Source of the DNA: Pontiella desulfatans
Lineage (GTDB): Bacteria > Verrucomicrobiota > Kiritimatiellia > Kiritimatiellales > Pontiellaceae
DNA: 64,000 nucleotides
Reading direction: 5' to 3'
NCBI RefSeq assembly: GCF_900890425.1
Contig: NZ_CAAHFG010000004.1
Coordinates: 552,798 to 616,797, forward strand
Shown: positions 50,630 to 62,065 of the stretch, piece after piece
How positions within the stretch are numbered: the stretch's first letter is position 1
Layout of the letters: the number at the start of each line of letters is the position of its first letter
Notes under the pieces: generated by a model
The model's database searches: none
Seen by the model: only the letters and a program-made list of their open reading frames with translations
What the model was told of the DNA's origin: nothing
Made by a program: the position numbers and the translations under genes

Positions 50630-53600
50630 TTAATGGTTCAGCAACCAGCTCTTGAGGCGGCCGCAGTCGTCGATCACCATGTAGAGGCAGGGGACGAGCA
50701 GCAGGGCGATGAAGGTGGCGAACAGGATGCCGAAGCCGAGCGAGATGGCCATCGGGATCAGGAACTTGGCCTGCCGCGAGGTTTCGAGAATCATCGGCAT
50801 CAGTCCACCGAAGGTGGTCATGGTGGTGAGCAGGATCGGGCGGAAGCGCTGAATGCCGGCCGAGACCACGGCGTCGTGCGCGTTGTCGTGGTCGGCGCGC
50901 CGTTCGTTGGCAAAGCTGATCAGCACGAGTGCGTCGTTCACCACCACGCCCGAGAGCGCGATCATGCCGATGATGCCGATCATGGTCATCGAATAACCCA
51001 TAATCAGATGGCCGACAACGGCGCCGATGATCCCGAACGGAATCGAGACCATCACGATCAGCGGCTGGGAATAGCTGCGGAACGGGATGGCGAGCAGGGC
51101 ATAGATGCAGAGCAGCACGAGCGGGATCGTGACCTTCATGCTACCGAAGCTTTCACGCTGGTCGGCGGTGCGGCCTTCATAGCTGTAGTCCAACCCCGGG
51201 AACTGGTCGGTCAACCGGGGGAAATATTCGGCATTGAGCTTGGCCATCACTTCCCCCGCCTTGGATTTGGGGCGGACGTCGGCCACGACGGTGATGGTGC
51301 GCATGCCGTTGCGGCGGTTGATGGTGGTGTAGGATTTACCGATTTCGATATCAACCGCATCGGAGAGCATCACCTCGCCGCCGTCGGGCGTGCGCAGGAC
51401 AAAGCTTTCGAAGTGGTGCATTTTCGTGCGCTCGTCTTTAGGCAGGCGCACCTTGACCTTCACCTCGTTGCGGCCGCGCTGCTGGCGCAGCACCTCGGTG
51501 CCCTCGAACGCGGCGCGTACCTGGCGGCCGACGTCATTGGCGGAGAGGCCGAGGCTGATGGCCTCGGGTTTCAGGGTGAAGTCGAACTGGGTCTTGCCTT
51601 CCTGCACGCCGTCATCGACATCCTGCACGAGCGGATAGTTCTCGAGTTCGGCGGCGAGGGTGCGGGCGGCTTCTTCGAGGGTACGAATGTTCTGGTGGCG
51701 CAGCTCGACTTCGAGGGCCGGGCCGCGGCCGGGGCCGCCTTCGTCGGAGGCGTAGCGGATGAAGCGGACGCCGGGCACATCGCCGACCTTCTTGCGCCAG
51801 GCCTGGACGAACGCTTCGGTGCCCATGATCTTGTCGCGGACTTCGGGATCGGCCAGATAGACGCGCACCTGGCAGGTGTGCGCGCCGCCGCGGCCGACAT
51901 TGGCAAAGATACCTTCAACGAGTTCCGGGTGGCCGGTTTCGGCCAGCACGGCCTGGGCGCCCTTGACCAGCCGGTCGGCCACGGCTTCGGTCTTTTCCAC
52001 CGGGGAGCCGAACGGCAGGGTGGCCGAGGCGGCTGCATAGTCGGATTCGACCGTGGTGAACATGGAGAAGCCCAGGCGCCCGCTGGCCCAATAGCCGCCC
52101 ACGAGCATCAGGATGGCCAGGGCCACAGAGATGACGACATAGCGGTGGGACAGGCAGAAGTCGAGGAACGGCCCGTACTTGGTGCGCACCCATTCGCGGA
52201 AGGCGTTGCTGAACTTTTGCTGGAAGCGGTGGAGGATGCCGAACAGGCCGGTCGGCTCCTTCTTGCGGACGTGGCTGAGGTGGGCGGGGAGGATGTAGAG
52301 GCTTTCCAGCCACGAGATGAGGAACACCGAAATCACCACGACCGGCAGCATGCCCATGATCCGGCCCATGGAGCCCGGCATGACCATCAGCGGAACGAAG
52401 GCAACGACGTTCGTCAGAATACTGAAGCCGACCGGGGAGCAGACCTGGCGCGCGCCCAGGATCGAGGCCTTGCTGCCTTCCAGCCCGTCCTGCAGGTTGT
52501 GGTAGACGTTTTCACCGACCACGATGGCGTCGTCGACCACGATACCGAGCGAGATGATGAAGGCAAACATCGTGATCATGTTGATCGAGAGTCCCGTCAG
52601 CGGCATGATCAGCATGGCGCCCAAAAACGAGATTGGAATCCCCATCGCCACCCAGAACGCCAGACGGATTTCCAGGAAGAGGCCGAGCACGAAGAGCACG
52701 AGAAGCAGGCCGAGCCCGCCGTTGCGCAACAGCAGGTCGGCGCGTTGGAAAAAGATTTCGGTGCGGTCCGACAGAATATCGATGCCGATGCCCTCGGGCA
52801 GCTGCTCCTCGATCTGCGGAAGCAGCTCGTTCACCGATTCGGAAACCTGGGACGGGGTCTGATCGCCGACACGGTAGATCTCCAGCATGATCGAGGGTTT
52901 GCCGTTGTAGTTCGCAAAGATATCGGAGTCTTCGAAGCCATCCACCACGGTTCCGATATCATTGAGTGTGAGGGGCGTTCCATCTTCGGTGGCCAGTACG
53001 GGGGTCTGGGCGAACTCCGTGCCGTAGTTGCGCCGTTCCTGCATGCGCAGCAACGTTTCGCCGCTATCGGTCTTGATGCCGCCGCCGGAGATTTCGCGCG
53101 ACTGCGAGTTGATGGTCGCTGCCAGCGACTGATGGGTGAGGCCATACTCGCGCAACTTGTCCTGCGAAACCTCCACGCTGATTTCCAGGTCGCGGGTTCC
53201 CGAAAGCTCCACCTGGGTGATGTTTTCGCTTTGCAGGAGGCGATCGCGCACCTGTTCGGCAATGTTGCGCAGGGTCATGTCGGACGCGTCGCCATACAAG
53301 ACGAGCGTCATGGCTTCGCGCAGGCGGGCGGCGAGCGAAACGACGGGCCGTTCGGCCCCGTCGGGGAAGGTGGTTACGCGGTCGATTTCGCTCTTGATGT
53401 CCTGATAGATCTTGATGCTGTCGACGCCTTCGAGCAGCTCGGCACTCACGGTGGCCGAACCTTCCCGGGCCACGGAGGTGACTTCGAAAACACCCTCGAT
53501 GCCGCGCACGGCCTCTTCGGCCACCAGGCAGACGCTCTGCTCCATCTCTTCGGGCGTGCCGCCCGGATAGGAGACGCGGATGGTGACCATGTCGGCACTG

Positions 53601-53743
53601 ATGTCGGGGAAAACCTCCTGCTTGATCTGCTTGAAGGAGGCGTAGCCGCCGACGAGGCAGAGAATCATCAACAGGTTCGCCGCCACCGGGTTCTTGACCA
53701 TCCACGCGATCGGCCCCTTGAATTTATCCATTAAGTTGTCCAT
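50630..53743 (-). CDS. RND efflux pump inner-membrane transporter (AcrB/HAE1-like)
   Basis: 1037 residues, full length. Start FKGPIAWMVKNPVAANLLMIL and KQEVFPDISADMVTIRVSYPGGTPEEMEQSV are standard for the family. The proton-relay Asp pair lies in SLGIVVDDAIVVGENVYHNL (about residue 405). VRYASDEGGPGRGPALEVELR and the second half's GVVVNDALVLISFANERR repeat the fold. It takes substrates from the periplasm or inner membrane and passes them to the outer-membrane channel using proton flow. The start is 3 nt after the adaptor gene stop. Substrates unknown. Confidence 0.94.
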   Translation of the reverse strand: MDNLMDKFKGPIAWMVKNPVAANLLMILCLVGGYASFKQIKQEVFPDISADMVTIRVSYPGGTPEEMEQSVCLVAEEAVRGIEGVFEVTSVAREGSATVSAELLEGVDSIKIYQDIKSEIDRVTTFPDGAERPVVSLAARLREAMTLVLYGDASDMTLRNIAEQVRDRLLQSENITQVELSGTRDLEISVEVSQDKLREYGLTHQSLAATINSQSREISGGGIKTDSGETLLRMQERRNYGTEFAQTPVLATEDGTPLTLNDIGTVVDGFEDSDIFANYNGKPSIMLEIYRVGDQTPSQVSESVNELLPQIEEQLPEGIGIDILSDRTEIFFQRADLLLRNGGLGLLLVLFVLGLFLEIRLAFWVAMGIPISFLGAMLIMPLTGLSINMITMFAFIISLGIVVDDAIVVGENVYHNLQDGLEGSKASILGARQVCSPVGFSILTNVVAFVPLMVMPGSMGRIMGMLPVVVISVFLISWLESLYILPAHLSHVRKKEPTGLFGILHRFQQKFSNAFREWVRTKYGPFLDFCLSHRYVVISVALAILMLVGGYWASGRLGFSMFTTVESDYAAASATLPFGSPVEKTEAVADRLVKGAQAVLAETGHPELVEGIFANVGRGGAHTCQVRVYLADPEVRDKIMGTEAFVQAWRKKVGDVPGVRFIRYASDEGGPGRGPALEVELRHQNIRTLEEAARTLAAELENYPLVQDVDDGVQEGKTQFDFTLKPEAISLGLSANDVGRQVRAAFEGTEVLRQQRGRNEVKVKVRLPKDERTKMHHFESFVLRTPDGGEVMLSDAVDIEIGKSYTTINRRNGMRTITVVADVRPKSKAGEVMAKLNAEYFPRLTDQFPGLDYSYEGRTADQRESFGSMKVTIPLVLLCIYALLAIPFRSYSQPLIVMVSIPFGIIGAVVGHLIMGYSMTMIGIIGMIALSGVVVNDALVLISFANERRADHDNAHDAVVSAGIQRFRPILLTTMTTFGGLMPMILETSRQAKFLIPMAISLGFGILFATFIALLLVPCLYMVIDDCGRLKSWLLNH

Positions 53744-53746
53744 GGC

Positions 53747-54979
53747 TTATGCTTCCTTTTTCGCCTGGCCTTGGCCTTCGGGTTTTTTCATGCCCGGTTT
53801 GCCCTTTCCGTTTCCGCCGGGCTTGCCCTGGGGGGCGGCTTCGCCGACGCGGCGCAATTCCATGCCATCGACCGCGGCGGGCAGGCCGGAGGTGACGATT
53901 TCGAGCTGGGCCGGGCCGTCGATGCGCACGAGCACATCGTCGGCATAGCCCTGGAGCACTTCGGCGGCCAGGATGCGTAGCTTGTTTTCGCCGTCGATTG
54001 TCCAGACCACGTTGCCATCGCGCAGGTAGACGCGTGGCAGCAGCAGCGCATCGTTGATGGTTTCGCCTTCGATGCGGATGCGGACATATTCATCGATCAG
54101 CATCGGGCGGCCTTCGCCGGAATAGGGCAGGTCGGCGGTCAACAGGAGGCGCGCCATGCGCCCCTTGGTAGATAGGCCGGGCAACAGCCGATGGGTTTGC
54201 GCGGCGCGGGTGGTGCCATCGGAAAGCGTGAGGGTGGCGGCGTAGGGCTGCCGGCCGAGCTGCGGAAGGGGGCCGAGGGCGCTGAGCGGGATCGAGGCGC
54301 GGACGAAAAAGCGGTCGGTCGCGGCCAGCTCGACGAGCACCTTGGAGGACTGCGCATAGTCGCCGACGTCGGCGGTTTCCGAAACCACCACGGCGTCGAA
54401 CGGCGCGCGGATCTTGGTGCGCGCAAGGTTGAGCTTCGCGGATTCAACGGCGAGTTCGGCGCTCTTGACGTTGGCCTCGGCTGATTTGAGCTGGGGTTCG
54501 CGCAGCATGAGGTCGCGGTAGCTTCCTTCCTGCTCTTCGTCCATGAGTTCGAGCTCGTGGCGAACGACGTCCTGCTGGCCTTCCTCGATGCGGTAGTTGC
54601 TTCTGGCGGTGAGCAGGGCGGCCTCGGCCTTGGCGAGCGCAAGTTCGTAGTCGGTCGGTTCAATCTCGACCAGCACGTCGCCTTTCTTCACGAGCCCGCC
54701 TTCGACCAGGCCGGGGGCGACCGCCACGATGCGGCCGCTCACTTCCGGCTGCAGGGCGGCGCTTTGGTCGGCCGCAACGGTGCCGAGACATTCGACGGCG
54801 TGGGTCTGGTCGGTGGTTTTCATTTTCTGTGTTTCGACCACGGGCACCATCGACGACATGGCCCGGCGGCGCTGGGCCTCGGGCTTGTTCTTAACGAAAT
54901 AGCGCGCGGCCAGGAAGCCTCCGGCAATGAAGGCGAGGCCGATGATTATGGATACGATACGGCGGGTTGCGTTGTTCAT
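53747..54979 (-). CDS. RND efflux periplasmic adaptor (membrane fusion protein)
   Basis: 410 residues. One N-terminal anchor (IVSIIIGLAFIAGGFLAARYF), lipoyl half-motifs (AALQPEVSGRIVAVAPGLVEGGLVKKGDVLVEI and TKIRAPFDAVVVSETADVGDYAQ) flanking an alpha-hairpin, then a beta-barrel domain. It links the RND pump to the outer-membrane factor. Unusual: a C-terminal Gly/Lys/Pro-rich basic tail (GKPGGNGKGKPGMKKPEGQG) not typical of the family. It overlaps the outer-membrane gene by 4 nt. Confidence 0.92.
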   Translation of the reverse strand: MNNATRRIVSIIIGLAFIAGGFLAARYFVKNKPEAQRRRAMSSMVPVVETQKMKTTDQTHAVECLGTVAADQSAALQPEVSGRIVAVAPGLVEGGLVKKGDVLVEIEPTDYELALAKAEAALLTARSNYRIEEGQQDVVRHELELMDEEQEGSYRDLMLREPQLKSAEANVKSAELAVESAKLNLARTKIRAPFDAVVVSETADVGDYAQSSKVLVELAATDRFFVRASIPLSALGPLPQLGRQPYAATLTLSDGTTRAAQTHRLLPGLSTKGRMARLLLTADLPYSGEGRPMLIDEYVRIRIEGETINDALLLPRVYLRDGNVVWTIDGENKLRILAAEVLQGYADDVLVRIDGPAQLEIVTSGLPAAVDGMELRRVGEAAPQGKPGGNGKGKPGMKKPEGQGQAKKEA

Positions 54980-56376
54980 TTTTCTTCCTCCAGCATGAAT
55001 GTCCAGTCGCCCCCGAGGGAACGGTAAAGTTGAATACGGTCGCCGAGCAGGTCGGCCTTGGCTTGCACATGGGTGATCTCGAGCGACTCGCGCGCGACGA
55101 TGGCGGTGAGCGCGTCGAGGAACGGCAGGGCGCCGCGCTGGTAGCGGCGGATCGATTCCGACTCGCTGTTTTGCGCGGCTTCGTACTGCTTGGCGACCGC
55201 CTCGACATATTCGGTCTGGTGGCGTTCGCTGTTGAGTGCGTCCTCGGTTTCCTGGATGGCTTCGAGCACGGCCAGGCGGTAGGCCGCGATGCGCTCGCGA
55301 GAGACGGCGTAGGTTCGGTCGACCTCGGCCTTGCGTGCGCCGCCGTCGAGCAGCGGGGCGAGCAGGCTGGCGGCGAGGTTGGAGGCCCAGTCGTCGAAGA
55401 GTTCGTCGATCTCCTCACCGCTGGTGGTGATGTTGCCCGTCAGCGAAATGGAGGGCAGGCGCGCGGCACGCGCGACGCCGACACTCCAGTCGGCCGACTC
55501 GAGCCTAAGGCGGGCGGCCTGCAGATCGGGGCGGTTTGCAAGAAGATCGACTGGAAGCCCGGCCGCCGGCTGGGGTGGGGGGGAAGGCAGCGGTTCGGGT
55601 TCCAGTCGAAGATCGGTTCCGGGAATCTTGCCGATGAGGACGGCAAGGGCGTTTTCGGTTTCCTTGATGCGGGCGCGCACGGGCGGCATGCGCGCTTCGG
55701 TCGCCGCCACCTGCTGGCGCTGCTGGAGCACGGCGAGCGAAGTGGCCTGCCCGGATTTGTAGCGGCGCTCGATGGCGGTGAGCTTGTTGCGGTTGGAGTC
55801 GAGCTGGCTTTCGTAGATGCGCAGCGCCTCGGTCTGCGCCTGCCAGGTGAAGTAGGAGACGGCCAGCTGGGCGGAGAGGCTCATGCCGGCGGTCTGCAGA
55901 TCGAACCGGGTTGCTTCGTAGGTCGCGAGCGCGGCGCGTTCGCCGGACTTGAGCTTGCCCCACAAGTCCAGCTCATAGCTGGCGTAGAGGCCGAGCGTAA
56001 AATCGGGGGTGGTGGAGCTGTTGCCGGTGTTGTTTAGGTTGGATTGGTAGCGGGATGAGGCGGAGGCCTTGCCATCGAGCTGCACCTTTCCGGCGGCGCC
56101 GCTTTTGCGGGCGGTGGCTTCGGCTTGCTCGAGGCGGGCGTAGGCCTGCTCCAGCGAGAGGCTGCCCGCGAAGGCTTCGGCCATCAGCCGGTCGAGCTGG
56201 GCCGAGCCGAAGGCGTTCCACCATTCGGTTTGCAGCGCGGCGCTGCCGGATTGGGCCTTGAACTGTTCGGGGGTTTGTTCCTTCAGCAGGTCGTCCTCGC
56301 GCCCGGGTTCGAGCGTGGTGCAGGAGGCGACAAGCAATGTGGCGGATAGGGTGAGGAGGGGTTGGGTGAGTTTCAT
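54976..56376 (-). CDS. Outer-membrane efflux lipoprotein (NodT/OprM family)
   Basis: 466 residues. A lipobox (LLVASCTTLEPG) marks a lipoprotein. Two outer-membrane-factor repeats: WWNAFGSAQLDRLMAEAF and SLEQAYARLEQAEATAR in the first, LPVDLLANRPDLQAARLRLESADWSVGVARAARLPSISL at the centre (the NodT signature), and YQRGALPFLDALTAIVARE near the end. It makes the TolC-like trimeric channel for the pump encoded by the next two genes. It overlaps tetR by 4 nt. Confidence 0.93.
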   Translation of the reverse strand: MKLTQPLLTLSATLLVASCTTLEPGREDDLLKEQTPEQFKAQSGSAALQTEWWNAFGSAQLDRLMAEAFAGSLSLEQAYARLEQAEATARKSGAAGKVQLDGKASASSRYQSNLNNTGNSSTTPDFTLGLYASYELDLWGKLKSGERAALATYEATRFDLQTAGMSLSAQLAVSYFTWQAQTEALRIYESQLDSNRNKLTAIERRYKSGQATSLAVLQQRQQVAATEARMPPVRARIKETENALAVLIGKIPGTDLRLEPEPLPSPPPQPAAGLPVDLLANRPDLQAARLRLESADWSVGVARAARLPSISLTGNITTSGEEIDELFDDWASNLAASLLAPLLDGGARKAEVDRTYAVSRERIAAYRLAVLEAIQETEDALNSERHQTEYVEAVAKQYEAAQNSESESIRRYQRGALPFLDALTAIVARESLEITHVQAKADLLGDRIQLYRSLGGDWTFMLEEEK

Positions 56377-57011
56377 TGTCTTAAACCTTTTTTTACTTCC
56401 CGGAGTCCGCCAATGGCGAACGCTTCCACCTGTTGGATCACCTGTTCGGAATCGAGATCCGTTGGAAATTTTTTTCTGAGCGTTGGATTGTCGCGGTGTT
56501 TCTGATATCCGGCGTTCATGGAAATATGCACGCCCATGAAGTTGACCGTGGCGACGCTGAGCTGGGCCTCGCTGACGGGGTGTTCGAGGAAATCGGCGAT
56601 GGCGGCCCGCACGCGCAGGCGGTTGGGGCGGAGGTAGGTGATGAAGAGTTCTTCGTGGAACGGGGTGAGCTCATTCATTTCGCGGTGGATGAGCTGGGGA
56701 AAGAGGCCGGCGGGGCCTTTGGCCATGATGCGCTCGATCCGCGAGCGCAAGAACTGCCGGAGCCAGGTCTCGGCACCGGTTTCCTCGTGCGATTCCGGCA
56801 CCGGGAACCGTTCGTTGGCCGCCCGGGAAAGATAGGCCCAGACTTCCTTGTAGAGGTTGCCCTTGTCGCCAAAGTGGTAGTTGACCGCTGCAATGTTGGC
56901 ATCGGCCTGTTCGCAGATTTCGGCGACGGTGGTTTTATGGAATCCCTTTTCAGCAAACATGGAGCTGGCCGCCTCGATCAATCGTTCTTTTGTTGTTTGG
57001 TTTTCCGCCAT
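56373..57011 (-). CDS. TetR-family regulator of the efflux operon
   Basis: 212 residues. N-terminal TetR helix-turn-helix (TKERLIEAASSMFAEKGFHKTTVAEICEQADANIAAVNYHFGDKGNLYKEV). The C-terminal ligand domain (LRQFLRSRIERIMAKGPAGLFPQLIHREMNELTP) resembles the CecR/YbiH group. It is the first gene of the operon tetR, outer-membrane factor, adaptor, pump, with 4-nt overlaps at the first two joints. Two matching operator-like boxes lie upstream, so self-repression is likely. Confidence 0.92.
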   Translation of the reverse strand: MAENQTTKERLIEAASSMFAEKGFHKTTVAEICEQADANIAAVNYHFGDKGNLYKEVWAYLSRAANERFPVPESHEETGAETWLRQFLRSRIERIMAKGPAGLFPQLIHREMNELTPFHEELFITYLRPNRLRVRAAIADFLEHPVSEAQLSVATVNFMGVHISMNAGYQKHRDNPTLRKKFPTDLDSEQVIQQVEAFAIGGLREVKKGLRQ

Positions 57012-57033
57012 GTTTCAAATGTCCGTTTGAATT
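57012..57033. promoter_or_regulatory. TetR operator-like box 1
   Basis: The 22-nt box contains the perfect inverted repeat TTCAAA-TGTCCG-TTTGAA and lies directly upstream of the tetR start. The reverse complement of box 2 matches it at 18 of 22 positions or better (shared core AAATGTCC, then TTTGAA). Confidence 0.72.
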
Positions 57034-57087
57034 AAGGATGGAAAACGTAGGGGGTTCGTGATTTATTGTCAACCGGTTCAAAGAAAT

Positions 57088-57109
57088 ATTTCAAATGGAC
57101 ATTTTAAAC
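57088..57109. promoter_or_regulatory. TetR operator-like box 2
   Basis: A second copy of the box in opposite orientation (ATTTCAAATGGACATTTTAA), 76 bp away from box 1. Paired boxes of this form are typical targets of a TetR-type dimer; binding is inferred. Confidence 0.7.
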
Positions 57110-57111
57110 GG

Positions 57112-57147
57112 GGTGAAAAAGAAAGCCCCGCCCGGTGGGGAGGGGCT
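57112..57147 (-). terminator. Intrinsic terminator after Cys-rich peptide A
   Basis: On the minus strand AGCCCC, CCC / GGG and GGGGCT pair as a GC-rich stem with one internal mismatch (57124-57147), followed by TTTCTTTTT. It begins 17 nt after the stop of the Cys-rich peptide gene and separates it from tetR. Confidence 0.88.
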
Positions 57148-57164
57148 ATGGGCGAAGGCCTCGG

Positions 57165-57377
57165 CTATTTCTTCGTGCAGCTCGGGCACGCGGTTTTCTT
57201 GGCGGCTTCGGCTTTCTTGGCTTCGCAGGCCTTGCAGGCTTTTCCATCCTTGCAGGCGGTGCATTCGGTTTTGGCTTTGTCGCCCTTCTTGGCTTTGCAT
57301 CCGCAAGTATCGCAAGCAAATGCGGAACTTCCGGCCATCATCAGTGCGATTGCAACGATGCTCATTGTTCTCTTCAT
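57165..57377 (-). CDS. Small exported Cys-rich peptide A
   Basis: 70 residues. A signal peptide (MKRTMSIVAIALMMAGSSAFA) is followed by CDTCGCKAKKGDKAKTEC and more Cys pairs (TAC, CKAC, CPSC): nine Cys, all in the mature part, with many Lys and no aromatic residues. It looks like a periplasmic metallothionein-type metal or thiol-redox peptide. AAGGAG lies 7 nt before the ATG. Peptide B at 58750-58947 is a paralogue. It sits 62 bp downstream of the anti-sigma gene and may be its target. I know no characterised function. Confidence 0.85.
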   Translation of the reverse strand: MKRTMSIVAIALMMAGSSAFACDTCGCKAKKGDKAKTECTACKDGKACKACEAKKAEAAKKTACPSCTKK

Positions 57378-57439
57378 GGTGCTACTCCTTATGGGTTGGG
57401 TTTCTACTACCTATTGCCGCGGGTGTTACCGGTGTGACG

Positions 57440-58093
57440 TTATGAATCCACTTTATGCTCCAAATCGAAGGAGGTGGCCGCCAGCATGCGGCGTCCGTCC
57501 TGCTCAACCAAGTCGCCTTCCACCAAAACCGGGGTCGGCCCACGGCAAAAGTGCCGCATTTTCATGTCCATTTCCGGATTGTCGACGAGATAAACGATTT
57601 CGGTACGGCCTTTATTGTCCACATACCGGATGGCCCTGAGGTGTTTTTCGGTTTGGTGCAGTGTGCAATGGGTGCAGACGCATTCCCCGTGGACGTGCAG
57701 GTGGACGTGGTCGGCCATGGCGACCGGTTGCGGATCGGACGAGGGTTTCATCAATACGCTCAGGGAGAGCAGGATAACCAGTATTGCCGCGATGGCGAAA
57801 ACCGGTTGCCACAGGAACGGGTTTTTCCGCTCCTTCAATTGTTTGGTCATGGAGAGTTCGAAATCGGAGGCATCTTCCTCCGCCCGCTGCCGGGTGTGGA
57901 AGGCCGCAAGGAAGGCATCCGCCGAGCGTTCCGGCGCATTTTCCTGCGACCAGACTTCCCAGATCAGCAACTGCTCGCGGAAATCCATCGCCAGGGTTTC
58001 GTCGGAACGGAGCAGATCCGCGAGTTCGGTCAGCTCGGCTTCGCTTGGCTCTCCATCGAAGTATAGCGAAAGCAGTTCGTCGTAACGCATCAT
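57440..58093 (-). CDS. Anti-sigma factor with His/Cys-rich external domain
   Basis: 217 residues from ATG 58093, which overlaps the sigma gene stop by 4 nt (ATGA); the frame is open further upstream but inside the sigma gene. Residues 1-50 resemble anti-sigma N-termini (MRYDELLSLYFDGEPSEAELTELADLL). Membrane helix about 93-115. The outer domain opens with a His run and Cys cluster (H129, H131, H133, H135, C138, C140, C143), continuing LHQTEKHLRAIRYVDNKGRT, IVYLVDNPE, MRHFCRGPTPVLVEGDLVEQ. This resembles small periplasmic Cys-containing domains seen alone in related bacteria. It probably senses a metal or redox state and releases the sigma factor; inference. Confidence 0.78.
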   Translation of the reverse strand: MMRYDELLSLYFDGEPSEAELTELADLLRSDETLAMDFREQLLIWEVWSQENAPERSADAFLAAFHTRQRAEEDASDFELSMTKQLKERKNPFLWQPVFAIAAILVILLSLSVLMKPSSDPQPVAMADHVHLHVHGECVCTHCTLHQTEKHLRAIRYVDNKGRTEIVYLVDNPEMDMKMRHFCRGPTPVLVEGDLVEQDGRRMLAATSFDLEHKVDS

Positions 58094-58620
58094 GACGCCG
58101 CCTCCCCGAACTGGCTTTCCATGCACTGTCGGACGGCCATGCGAATACGCTGGAGTTGCTTGCGAACGGCCGCGGCGGTGGATTGCAGCTCGGTCGCCAG
58201 ATCCTTGGCCTGCCGCCCTTGCTGGTAGCGGCAGCGCAGCAGCTCGCGCTGGGGCTCCGGCAACTTTTCCACACAGCACTTCATGGTTTCGACCGCGCGC
58301 TCACGACCGGGGTCGGGTTCATGCTTTTCAATGCCCAGGCTCAGCAGGACATCGGAAATGCCATCGTGCAGGATCCGGTAGCGCCGGGCTGATTTGGAGC
58401 GCTCGCCCATCACCTGGCGCCGGGCGATTCCCCGGAGCCATTTGCCGAAATCCTCGTCCGGCCGGAACTGGTTCTGCTTGCGGTAGGCGACCAGGAAAAC
58501 CTCCTGCGCCAGATCGTCCACCCACGCCTCGTCCGCGCCCAGCGCCCGGATAAAGGCGCGCAGCCCGGCTTGATGCTCCCGCACCAGCGCATCGAAATCC
58601 AACATATGAATCACGCTCAT
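58090..58620 (-). CDS. ECF RNA polymerase sigma factor
   Basis: 176 residues from ATG 58620 (Met6 at 58605 is an alternative). Region 2: FDALVREHQAGLRAFIRALGADEAWVDDLAQEVFLVAYRK, region 2.4 FGKWLRGIARRQVM. Region 4: CCVEKLPEPQRELLRCRYQQGRQAKDLATELQSTAAAVRKQLQRIRMAVRQCM. The pattern matches the Rhodopirellula/Verrucomicrobium-type ECF sigma factors that usually pair with a membrane anti-sigma, as here. Confidence 0.93.
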   Translation of the reverse strand: MSVIHMLDFDALVREHQAGLRAFIRALGADEAWVDDLAQEVFLVAYRKQNQFRPDEDFGKWLRGIARRQVMGERSKSARRYRILHDGISDVLLSLGIEKHEPDPGRERAVETMKCCVEKLPEPQRELLRCRYQQGRQAKDLATELQSTAAAVRKQLQRIRMAVRQCMESQFGEAAS

Positions 58621-58692
58621 ACCCTATATTGGCGCGGGACTTTATTATGTGACAGCTAAAAAACCTGCCATGCAGACATTTCCATGCTCACT

Positions 58693-58720
58693 AAAAACGC
58701 CTCCCCCTCGAGGGGAAGCG
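58693..58720 (-). terminator. Intrinsic terminator between Cys-rich peptide B and the sigma gene
   Basis: On the minus strand CGCTTCCCC-TCGA-GGGG-AGGCG forms a stem with a minor bulge, followed by TTTTT. It lies about 30 nt after the stop of the peptide B gene, so that gene is transcribed separately from the sigma operon. Confidence 0.88.
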
Positions 58721-58749
58721 CTTTTCAAGAGAACGATGAACAACAGCTA

Positions 58750-58947
58750 TTACGCGGTTTTCGATCCACCATCATCTTTTTTCGATCCACCGCAAGCGGT
58801 TTGGGATTTCTCGCCCTTGCAGGATGAGCCGCACTCGGTCTTATCCTTGTCTGATTTCTTCGACTCGCATCCGCAACCGCTGCATGCATACGCCACGCCG
58901 CCTGCCATTATTAATGCCACTGCCACGATTCTCATTGTTTTTTTCAT
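58750..58947 (-). CDS. Small exported Cys-rich peptide B
   Basis: 65 residues, a paralogue of peptide A: signal MKKTMRIVAVALIMAGGVAYA, then CSGCGCESKK, ECGSSC and a last Cys, ending in Gly/Ser/Lys/Asp. The two share MK-x-TM-x-IVA-x-AL-x-MAG and the C-x-x-CGC start of the mature peptide. AAGGAG precedes the ATG. Flanking the sigma/anti-sigma pair on both sides suggests that both peptides belong to that regulon. Confidence 0.83.
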   Translation of the reverse strand: MKKTMRIVAVALIMAGGVAYACSGCGCESKKSDKDKTECGSSCKGEKSQTACGGSKKDDGGSKTA

Positions 58948-59235
58948 TTTGGTACTCCTTATGGTTTATATTCGTGAATAACAACGAGCCTTGTTCGTGC
59001 AGGGAGGTTTAACCTTTCATCATTTCCACTTTTTTTTTTGCGGCGATCTTTCATCGACCGAAAACTACATGGGAATCCATTCCTGCCAAGGCGTAGAACC
59101 CAGTCGAGAGAAGTGCGTGCCGCCCTAAATACAGACGGCGGCGAGCAGCGTCTTGCCGTACCCCGGCTACAGCACGTGCCAGCAGGCAAACAGATACAAT
59201 GTCCAAAGTTGATGTAGTTCCATAATGGAACCGAA
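58948..59235. other. Non-coding gap with one hairpin
   Basis: No gene is supported. It holds the promoter side of peptide B, a T/A homopolymer run at 59030-59038, and a small hairpin GCCGCC/GGCGGC at 59119-59142 downstream of the YibE/F gene. The stretch 59045-59200 has codon-like composition on the minus strand and may be a degenerate dispersed element. Confidence 0.4.
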
Positions 59236-60387
59236 CTAGGCATTTCCCGAGCCCGCATGGCGCTTCCTCCGCATCACCAGTCCGCCAATGACGGCGGTGA
59301 ACGGGGCGACGGTGACGAGGCCGAAGCTGCCCACCATCGTGTTGAGCACCTCGGCGGCGACATAGTTCATGTTGAAGACCTGGACGGGCGGGATGTCCTG
59401 GCTGGTGAAAACCATGAACATGAATACATAGGAGCTGGAGTAGGCGAGCAGCAGGGTGGTGGTCATGGTGCCGATGACGGAGCGTCCGACGCGCAAGCCG
59501 GAGCGGATATGCTCCATGAAATGGATGTCGGGGTGCTTCAGCTTCACCTCCTCCATCGAGGCGGCGATGTCCATGGCCAGATCCATGACGGCGCCGGATG
59601 CGGCGAGGAAGATGCTGGCAATGAAGATGGGGGTGAGCTGGAGGTGGGCGTAGCCGCCATACATGAGGACTTCCGCGAAGGGGCGCACCGCTCCGTGAAT
59701 GTGGAACAGGTGCGTGAATAAAACAGCGAGCAGGGCGGTGAGGGCGAGCCCCATGAAGGCGCCGGCAAAGGTGACGAAGCCCTTTTGCGACACGCCGCCG
59801 ACCAGGAAGCTGATGGATGCGGTGAGGGCGGCCACCACGCCGAGCGCCGTCCAGACCGGGTTGTGGCCGTTGAGGAACATGGGAATCATGACCTTCCAGA
59901 TCATGAGCACGGCGAAGGCGAAGGAGAGAATGGCCTTGAGGCCGGTCACGCCGGCAACGGCGACAAGGGCGAGTGCAAAGAGTGCGAAAAGGATCAGTTC
60001 CAAATGGATGCGGTAGTGCCCGAGCGTTGCGCCCATGTCCGGCCTCCCTCCGGAGGTCAGTCGATATTTCACGAGGGCTTTTTCGCCGGGCGCGTAAAGC
60101 TCGTCGATTTCGAGGCGCCCCTGGAGGTGGTTGTTCACGGTGATCGGTTCGCCTTTGCACGGCCCCGAGAGAAGGCGCCCCTTAAGCTGCTGCGTGCCGA
60201 CCTTGGTGATTCCGATGGTCTGGAGTCCGGAGCTGTTCACTTCAAGGATCCGCACCGGATGGCGGAGGGCTTTCTTGTTGGCGCCGTTGTTTTCGAATCC
60301 GGTGGGGATGAACAAAAGGATGCAGCAAAGGAGCGCAAAGACAAGGGTGAGGATGAGATCGCGGGACTTTTTGAAGCATAGGGCCAT
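59236..60387 (-). CDS. YibE/F family membrane protein
   Basis: 383 residues. One N-terminal helix (LILTLVFALLCCILLFIPTGF), a 110-residue outer domain, then about seven helices. The family core is clear: GVTGLKAILSFAFAVLMIWKVMIPMFLNGHNP, VTFAGAFMGLALTALLAVLFTHLFHIHG, SGAVMDLAMDIAASMEEVKLKHP, GRSVIGTMTTTLLLAYSSSYVFMFMVF. The function of YibE/F proteins is not established. It lies between the Cys-rich peptide cluster and alkaline phosphatase, both on the same strand. Confidence 0.9.
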   Translation of the reverse strand: MALCFKKSRDLILTLVFALLCCILLFIPTGFENNGANKKALRHPVRILEVNSSGLQTIGITKVGTQQLKGRLLSGPCKGEPITVNNHLQGRLEIDELYAPGEKALVKYRLTSGGRPDMGATLGHYRIHLELILFALFALALVAVAGVTGLKAILSFAFAVLMIWKVMIPMFLNGHNPVWTALGVVAALTASISFLVGGVSQKGFVTFAGAFMGLALTALLAVLFTHLFHIHGAVRPFAEVLMYGGYAHLQLTPIFIASIFLAASGAVMDLAMDIAASMEEVKLKHPDIHFMEHIRSGLRVGRSVIGTMTTTLLLAYSSSYVFMFMVFTSQDIPPVQVFNMNYVAAEVLNTMVGSFGLVTVAPFTAVIGGLVMRRKRHAGSGNA

Positions 60388-60420
60388 CGTGAAAAATTTC
60401 CGGTTGATGAATAAGCAGAC

Positions 60421-60443
60421 AGGGAGCCTATGGAAGGCTCCCT
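60421..60443. terminator. Hairpin downstream of alkaline phosphatase
   Basis: Perfect 9-bp stem AGGGAGCCT and AGGCTCCCT with a 5-nt loop, about 30 nt after the phosphatase stop. No proper T-run follows on the minus strand, so termination is uncertain. Confidence 0.55.
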
Positions 60444-60475
60444 GCGAATACGTCGAATAAAGGATTAGAATCGCA

Positions 60476-62065
60476 TTAGTAGTTCAGCTCGCCGTCATAA
60501 TCTTTATCGACGGCCGGCAGACTGCGTGCACGCATGGCTTTGGCCAAGCGCTTGGCAATGTCGGTGTTGTCGTAGCTGCCGGTGAAGCGCCAGCCTTCGA
60601 GGCCGACGGCCATAACCGGTACCGGAACGCAGGTGTGGCTGTAGGACGTCCAGCCGAGGCCGGCTTCCTGGTTGATGATGTGCGTCAGGGTCATGACGAT
60701 CGGGTTGTAGGATCCCCCATAGTTTTCATAGTCGATGGTGGTCGGGCCCTGCAGGTCGTAGCCGGTGATGGTCTGGTTGCCTTTGGATCCGCCCATGAAG
60801 CGGTCGAATGCCTCTTCGAGCAGGCTCTTCTGGTAGTCGCTCAGATAGTTTGCCGGGCTGTCCTTCGTCCACTCTTCATCGCTCCAAACCATGCCGGAGA
60901 GGGATTCGATCAGCTCGATCATTCCTGCATCGATGTCGGAGGAGGCATCCACATAGTTGGAGTCTGCCGCCTTGTACTGATACATGCCGCCGGTCATCAG
61001 TTCATAGGAGACCAGCTGGCCGTCGAGCACCTCGAAGGCGGTCTGGTATTTGGTGCCGGCGTAGCCGAGGGTCATGCCGCCGGTTTCATGGTCGCCGGTC
61101 ACAGCGATCAGGGTTTCCCACGGATGCTTTTTCATGAAGTCCATCGCAACACCGACGGCTTCGTCGAATGCGAGGGTGTCCAGGATGTTGGCTTTGGCAT
61201 CGTTGGCGTGGCCGGCCCAGTCGATCTTGCCGCCTTCGACGAAAATGAAGAAGCCGTCGCGGTCGCACTTCAGGCGCTCAATGGCGCATCCGGTGACTTC
61301 CGCCAGGGAAAAGTTTTCTTCCGGGTTGTCGATGGCGTAGGGCATGGCGTCGGAACCGTAGGAAACCGGAACGGAACAGATGACCTTCTGTTCCTGTGGC
61401 TGCGCCAGTGCATCTTCGACGGTGTTGACGGTTACGTAACCAGCATTGGAGAATGCGTTGCTCACTGCGATCCCGCCGGCGTTGTCGGTCTTGTCGAGCT
61501 TGCGGAAGCATCCGCCGCCGAAAAACTCGAATCCGCTCAAGGAGGCCTGGTAGCCGATTTCCGTATAGCTGTTGCGGCTGTTGACTCGTGCATAGCAGCC
61601 AGCCGGAGTGGCGTGCGGCAGCGATACGCTGGAGATGATGCCGATGGCTTTGCCTTTTTCCTGCGCAACTTCGGCGATGCTCAGGTAGGAGGTGTCGAGG
61701 TCGGTGTTGCGGCCGATTACGCCCGGAGCGGTTTTTATGCCACAGCAGAAGGCGGTGGCCGCAGCGGCAGAGTCGGTGATGAACTGCGTGTCGGCAAAGG
61801 TGGTGGAAACACCTGCAATCGGCAACTGGCTCATGTTCAGGCGATTCTCCGTTTTCATCAGGTCAGCCGGGTTGTCCGGGTTATCGCCGTTCATGTGGGT
61901 CTTGTAGGCTTCGGCGGCCTGGATCTGGACGCTGGCCATGCCGTCGCCGACGAAGAAGAACACATACTTCGGCCCATTGCGGAACCGGGCTTCGGCGGAA
62001 CCCGCTGCGAAAAGTGCCGCAACGGCACAGGATGCGGCAACGCCGCGCGTAATCATCGATTTCAT
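60476..62065 (-). CDS. Alkaline phosphatase (PhoA family)
   Basis: 529 residues with a signal peptide (ASCAVAALFAAGSAEA). Metal ligand Asp in FFFVGDGMASVQ (about D41); catalytic serine in TQFITDSAAAATAF (about S99), matching the PhoA DSA motif. VEGGKIDWAGHANDAK and TGDHETGGMTLGYAG carry the Asp/His ligands; SYSHTCVPVPVMAVGLEG supplies the late His. It hydrolyses phosphomonoesters in the periplasm or outside the cell and probably serves phosphate acquisition. GGGAGA lies about 8 nt before the ATG. I see no clear Pho box. The C-terminus DKDYDGELNY resembles a calcium loop. Confidence 0.94.
   Translation of the reverse strand: MKSMITRGVAASCAVAALFAAGSAEARFRNGPKYVFFFVGDGMASVQIQAAEAYKTHMNGDNPDNPADLMKTENRLNMSQLPIAGVSTTFADTQFITDSAAAATAFCCGIKTAPGVIGRNTDLDTSYLSIAEVAQEKGKAIGIISSVSLPHATPAGCYARVNSRNSYTEIGYQASLSGFEFFGGGCFRKLDKTDNAGGIAVSNAFSNAGYVTVNTVEDALAQPQEQKVICSVPVSYGSDAMPYAIDNPEENFSLAEVTGCAIERLKCDRDGFFIFVEGGKIDWAGHANDAKANILDTLAFDEAVGVAMDFMKKHPWETLIAVTGDHETGGMTLGYAGTKYQTAFEVLDGQLVSYELMTGGMYQYKAADSNYVDASSDIDAGMIELIESLSGMVWSDEEWTKDSPANYLSDYQKSLLEEAFDRFMGGSKGNQTITGYDLQGPTTIDYENYGGSYNPIVMTLTHIINQEAGLGWTSYSHTCVPVPVMAVGLEGWRFTGSYDNTDIAKRLAKAMRARSLPAVDKDYDGELNY

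Follow-up and report, generated by a model that had tools for sequence, protein, structure and literature searches.

The described systems nearest in logic to the locus presented here are SigF/NrsF with its bufferins and rpoQ-rsqA with gigPABT. SigF and NrsF of Caulobacter crescentus are an ECF sigma factor and an anti-sigma factor; the system is copper-induced and includes a DUF2282/DUF692 (bufferin) operon (PMC8224329, PMC12452194). In Cupriavidus metallidurans, rpoQ-rsqA adjoins gigPABT, with induction by copper and gold; GigP is a putative periplasmic protein with four cysteines, and the control of gig by RpoQ is only assumed (PMC10304878). CorE senses by means of a C-terminal Cys-rich extension of the sigma factor itself (PMC10141476).

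The locus compared with these systems stems from Pontiella desulfatans, whose strain F1 was obtained from anoxic Black Sea sediment and has a genome of 8.6 Mbp (PMC7356697). It is part of a stretch of 64,000 nucleotides, which was analysed as a whole and is called the window in the following. On the minus strand, positions 57165-58947 contain in this order the genes of peptide 2, an ECF sigma factor, an anti-sigma factor, and peptide 1 (Table 1). A preliminary description of this DNA had seen here a sigma/anti-sigma pair with paralogous exported Cys-rich peptides on either side, and these genes were confirmed at their places. With SigF/NrsF, the locus shares the ECF sigma factor with a (here predicted) anti-sigma factor, and a regulon to which small exported Cys-containing peptides belong, in the window as the proposed output. 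However, no DUF692/MNIO enzyme was found in the window's genome, its peptide is unrelated to bufferins by sequence and far richer in cysteine and lysine, and the anti-sigma factor, unlike NrsF, has one hydrophobic segment and a predicted OB-fold outer domain. A search for the MNIO enzyme (PF05114; bufferin/oxazolin maturase) found it in none of seven genomes (the window's and six related ones), while a Caulobacter control was positive; membership in the bufferin/oxazolin group was rejected for this reason. The signature of bufferin precursors (DUF2282, 6/12-Cys, EGKCG) was found in neither peptide.

The likeness to rpoQ-rsqA consists in an ECF sigma factor and a predicted membrane anti-sigma factor encoded beside the gene of a small, putatively periplasmic peptide. 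GigP, however, is co-transcribed with gigA, gigB, and gigT, which are absent from the window locus, and no sequence relationship between the two loci was seen. CorE likewise combines ECF sigma signalling with Cys ligands, whereas the cysteines of the window are located on a separate membrane anti-sigma factor. Because MNIO and the bufferin signature are missing and the anti-sigma factor is not NrsF-like, the circuit would work like SigF/NrsF and rpoQ-rsqA without being a member of either system. PADLOC reported nothing relevant, and in the literature searched there was no mention of DUF6370, nor of Pontiella together with "sigma factor".

Table 1. Features of the locus and of the neighbouring operon (positions in the window)
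Feature	Position	Strand	Basis
ECF sigma factor, 176 aa, TIGR02989 (Rhodopirellula/Verrucomicrobium family)	58090..58620	-	profile match, conservation
Membrane anti-sigma factor (predicted), 217 aa	57440..58093	-	position, weak zf-HC2-like N-terminus, single hydrophobic segment, synteny
Outer (periplasmic) sensor domain (predicted), residues 128-217, DUF6370-like OB fold	57443..57712	-	
Proposed autoregulatory ECF promoter TGTCAC-N17-CAAT, 7 bases 5' of sigma start codon	58628..58654	-	
Proposed ECF promoter CGTCAC-N17-CAAT, 35 bases 5' of peptide 1	57413..57439	-	
Peptide 1, 70-aa exported Cys/Lys-rich peptide, putative circuit output	57165..57377	-	
Terminator-like hairpin and T-run 3' of peptide 1, between peptide 1 and TetR-RND operon	57110..57147	-	
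Peptide 2, 65-aa paralogue upstream of sigma	58750..58947	-	
Element AAGGTT-N10-GCACGAAC upstream of peptide 2	58993..59016	-	
Strong intrinsic terminator 3' of peptide 2	58693..58725	-	
TetR/CecR-type regulator, first gene of adjoining RND efflux operon	56373..57011	-	
Outer-membrane factor, adaptor, RND pump; neighbouring operon	50630..56376	-	

The sigma factor reached 147.6 bits with TIGR02989 (cutoff 124.55), which places it in this subfamily; Sigma70_r2 (PF04542) and Sigma70_r4_2 (PF08281) both scored above their cutoffs, i.e. regions 2 and 4 are present. Its gene is kept in four congeneric genomes and in three genomes of another family. A comparison of upstream regions, in which the motif was first spotted by eye ([CT]GTCAC, exactly 17 bases, CAA[TA]), gave YGTCAC-N17-CAAW 5' of the sigma gene in five of five related genomes that have retained the pair and likewise 5' of the downstream peptide in all five. 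The 64-kb window contains two matches, exactly before sigma and peptide 1, where 0.57 were expected. For a held-out test, the motif was fixed in Pontiellaceae and then sought in those genomes of another family (f48) that encode a full anti-sigma homologue: It precedes the sigma gene in three of three (G143, G488, G433), and in dinucleotide shuffles of these three regions it occurred in 0, 1, and 5 of 4000 trials. The promoter motif that had been expected in common was thus located before sigma and the downstream peptide, but is absent before the upstream peptide 2. We propose that it is the promoter from which sigma factors of this group transcribe their own gene and their targets, and regard the wiring read from these sequences, i.e. 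the sigma factor, its own promoter, and the downstream peptide, as very probable.

The conservation of the arrangement was determined in 58 genomes, the window's own among them. An intact anti-sigma factor is encoded in four congeners besides the window; in each of the four, sigma, anti-sigma, one Cys-rich peptide, TetR, and efflux genes follow each other in order (the gene of an outer-membrane factor and, where the contigs of the partly draft genomes extend far enough, those of adaptor and RND pump). The four-gene layout that had been anticipated for other genomes is not kept: A second peptide upstream of sigma occurs in the window only, which is one of five layouts. In G024 and G027 (L013:6622-7101, L014:8172-8651), the position of peptide 2 is occupied by a second copy of the anti-sigma factor that lacks the sigma-binding part and retains membrane segment and sensor domain, and this truncated paralogue is possibly a co-sensor or decoy. 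G025 has disrupted genes for sigma and anti-sigma and no longer has the peptide, while its efflux operon is intact; this pattern of decay indicates that sigma, anti-sigma, and peptide were lost as a unit. The idea of an envelope stress circuit with a Cys-rich peptide as output therefore stands in so far as pair and peptide occur together in five genomes, have a motif in common, and decayed jointly in a sixth, but it does not extend to the upstream peptide. As a separate observation, L015:6010-6600 carries decaying sigma/anti-sigma pseudogenes, in which the promoter half-sites are still visible (TGTCAC-N17-CAAC).

The anti-sigma gene overlaps the sigma gene by 4 bases. Its product has no Pfam or NCBIfam match above cutoff; the N-terminus is weakly zf-HC2-like, with a match below cutoff, and one hydrophobic segment comprises about residues 97-116. 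From position, architecture, and synteny we infer the role of a membrane anti-sigma factor, with sigma binding predicted. The outer domain starts DHVHLHVHGECVCTHC, and the preliminary description had emphasized four alternating histidines and a C-x-C-x-x-C cluster at this site. Both are present here, but in a comparison of 12 sequences only this genome's protein has the four histidines, and the tract was rejected as a conserved sensor feature since it is confined to this genome. The first cysteine of the cluster, C138, is likewise specific to the Pontiella lineage; invariant are C140-x-x-C143 and C183. In the alignment, all 12 relatives, stand-alone exported proteins included, have CxxC, a distal [FY]-C, and glycines.

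In the f48 family, there are small exported proteins of DUF6370-like type that resemble this outer domain. The small exported proteins of DUF6370 (PF19897; gathering cutoff 25 bits) agree with it in CxxC, distal [FY]C, size, and strand pattern; the relatives found are free-standing, whereas in the window the domain forms part of a membrane anti-sigma factor. The window domain itself gives no match to PF19897, one of its relatives matches at E 0.0044, and the free-standing relatives score 25.2 and 23.7 bits, values which straddle the cutoff. We call the domain DUF6370-like only, and not a member of DUF6370. Modelled alone, it adopts an OB fold (pLDDT 83, pTM 0.73), whereas the model of the full-length anti-sigma factor is poor (pLDDT 58). 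An envelope-stress OB fold like that of the sensor model is the C-terminal domain of NlpE, the activator of the Cpx pathway, and VIA-align gave Z 8.0 for 78 residues with an rmsd of 3.0. NlpE, however, belongs to a different signalling pathway and has only the fold in common with the sensor; as OB folds without any relationship, SSB and PriB among them, reach the same Z value, nothing was concluded from the match, and the modelled fold carries no functional inference. Foldseek searches with the structure models gave no match at E < 0.001, and the best hit of the sensor profile in a PDB sequence search was an unconvincing fimbrial subunit (E 0.004).

Both peptides have a signal peptide of 21 residues that ends in AxA and is followed by Cys (AFA|C, AYA|C). 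The mature part of peptide 1 consists of 49 aa with 9 Cys and 14 Lys, that of peptide 2 of 44 aa with 6 Cys and 9 Lys; 98% of the mature residues are Cys, Lys, Ala, Gly, Ser, Thr, Asp, or Glu. The two align as paralogues with 56% identity. Neither has a meaningful Pfam or NCBIfam match, DUF2282 included, EGKCG repeats do not occur in them, and a PDB sequence search with the peptide yielded unconvincing zinc fingers (E 0.3). By its composition, peptide 1 may be a metallothionein-like chelator.

In the mechanism that we propose, the cytoplasmic N-terminal domain of the anti-sigma factor would keep sigma at the inner membrane in the resting state. The cysteines of the periplasmic OB domain (CxxC and the distal Cys) would bind a thiophilic metal or change their redox state, and this event would release sigma, by proteolysis or by a conformational change. 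The freed sigma factor would then transcribe its own operon (sigma and anti-sigma) and, from the second copy of YGTCAC-N17-CAAW, the downstream peptide 1. This peptide would be exported by Sec and, in unmodified form, either chelate metal in the periplasm like a metallothionein or buffer thiols there. The genes, the common motif, co-conservation, co-decay, and the invariant cysteines are observed; topology, signal, mode of sigma release, and peptide function are predictions from them. For the statement as a whole, an autoregulated envelope thiol/soft-metal switch with an unmodified metallothionein-like exported output, our confidence is moderate.

The alternative that survives best keeps the same wiring and replaces the metal by thiol oxidation or a change in oxygen or redox conditions: The CxxC + Cys sensor would make or break a disulfide, and the peptide would be a sacrificial periplasmic thiol pool. 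An invariant core of only CxxC and one further Cys is typical of redox switches too, conservation does not extend to the additional His and Cys residues, which would speak for a metal, and P. desulfatans is an anaerobe that has been studied for its response to oxygen and redox potential (PMC7356697). However, peptides of such high Cys and Lys content, with cysteines spaced as CxxCxC and CxxC, look like thiolate chelators, and the described ECF-controlled Cys-peptide systems are copper-linked. We consider a redox-driven circuit rather unlikely and a metal about twice as probable a signal as a redox change. The f48 genomes bear on the same question. Each of their three full anti-sigma homologues has as partner a sigma gene that is of the TIGR02989 type or clearly homologous, and behind the pair lies, instead of a Cys peptide, an exported protein resembling SnoaL; in G143 (L079:7072-9320), this SnoaL-like protein precedes a DUF6144-like exported protein, and a radical-SAM-like protein is also present. 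This indicates that the output of the circuit changed between lineages, and the signal need not be metal-specific.

To our knowledge, many ECF pairs of the Verrucomicrobiota are without a known signal. Our broadest proposal, that a DUF6370-like OB domain is the periplasmic thiol/metal sensor in a family of ECF anti-sigma factors across the Verrucomicrobiota and that the Pontiella lineage recruited an enzyme-free, genetically encoded exported metallothionein to such a switch, is tentative. If it is true, MNIO-modified bufferins would not be the only way to buffer metals in the periplasm, and this lineage would have a second one. The locus supplies a short exported peptide rich in Cys and Lys for which metal buffering in the absence of a modifying enzyme is conceivable. 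It also assigns a plausible role, that of an outer-domain thiol sensor, to the uncharacterised DUF6370-like domain, and yields a concrete, testable wiring diagram with a promoter motif for one Verrucomicrobiota ECF group.

A different reading of the conserved gene order sigma-anti-sigma-peptide-TetR-efflux is that the circuit mainly controls the neighbouring TetR-RND efflux operon, the peptide being incidental; the TetR regulator is indeed found beside the circuit in all five genomes. We give this reading little credence, since the motif is missing before the TetR gene in all four genomes tested, a terminator-like hairpin lies behind the peptide gene, the operon starts with its own TetR regulator, and in G025 it outlives the decayed sigma pair. 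The RND operon was rejected as a direct sigma target, as its TetR gene is not preceded by the motif. By NCBIfam score, the pump is multidrug-like rather than CusA-like: It reached 316 bits with the CusA/CzcA model TIGR00914 (cutoff 701), and its best score was obtained with a multidrug RND model, also under cutoff. The preliminary description had assigned a strong terminator to each peptide, and this holds for peptide 2 (hairpin and T-run, -23.4 kcal/mol, z -3.5); the hairpin of peptide 1 is not significant by energy alone (z -1.4), although a G+C stem with a T-run lies 3' of the circuit peptide in all five genomes.

Equally improbable in our opinion is that the motif is common for other reasons, for instance as the binding site of another regulator, and that sigma controls unrelated genes. 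The motif is a predicted promoter, assigned from sequence. It is also short, which explains why a scan of the 8.66-Mb genome with a slightly stricter form (CAAT) gave 19 matches, a number near background (9 in the reversed control). The scan used the consensus pattern rather than a weight matrix; the remaining 17 matches all lie inside ORFs of at least 174 aa, and consequently any regulon visible with the consensus is very small. On the other hand, the motif occupies the classic autoregulatory position before sigma in eight of eight genomes from two families with a fixed spacing of 17 bases, counts which are not independent, as five of the eight genomes are congeners and close relatives. Least probable is that the peptide is a precursor of a bufferin/oxazolin-type RiPP metallophore and the pair a SigF/NrsF-like regulator: ECF sigma factor, membrane anti-sigma factor, and small exported Cys peptide are arranged in the same way and bufferin precursors are frequently encoded apart from their enzyme (PMC12452194), but the seven genomes are without a PF05114 gene, the peptides match neither DUF2282 nor another Pfam model, and the anti-sigma factor matches no model of the NrsF/DUF1109 type in Pfam or NCBIfam.

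The proposed sigma-controlled peptide belongs to a wider family, which occurs in 24 of the 58 genomes; only five of these 58 have an intact sigma pair. Most copies adjoin gcvPB, often near folD, and are not linked to sigma; the five genomes with the sigma factor each have such a gcvPB-side copy as well (L002, L052, L062, L063, L112). The upstream sequence of the gcvPB-side copies is different and resembles, by eye, a sigma-70 promoter, and the motif precedes none of 20 other family copies. Peptides that occur independently of the pair in most genomes had been named beforehand as evidence against the circuit, and this is literally what we found. That the peptides are mostly outside the circuit counts against our main reading, but the finding indicates recruitment from a wider family and not the absence of a circuit. 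The simplest history would be the duplication of a widespread exported Cys-rich peptide, of which one copy came under sigma control. L002:1520-1729 and most other peptide loci show the Cys-rich exported peptide beside gcvPB across the genus, independent of the sigma pair.

Peptide 2 was rejected as a second sigma target, because the motif is missing and a different conserved element is found instead. This element, AAGGYT-N10-GCACGAAC, is common to peptide 2 and two orphan genes of the peptide-2 type (G021, G023), with one match per genome in these three and none in four others. Of the two flanking peptides that had been assigned to one circuit, only the downstream one thus fits; the upstream one, with its own element, without the motif, and present in a single layout, is probably a paralogue under other control and outside the sigma regulon. 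On its far side, the window contains at 59236-62065 a YibE/F-family membrane protein and an alkaline phosphatase, both of which G024 and G027 have at the same place. At the other end of the locus, paired TTTCAAATG/CATTTGAA-like repeats are located 5' of TetR (57015-57110), similar repeats precede TetR in relatives, and they are probable operators of the efflux operon.
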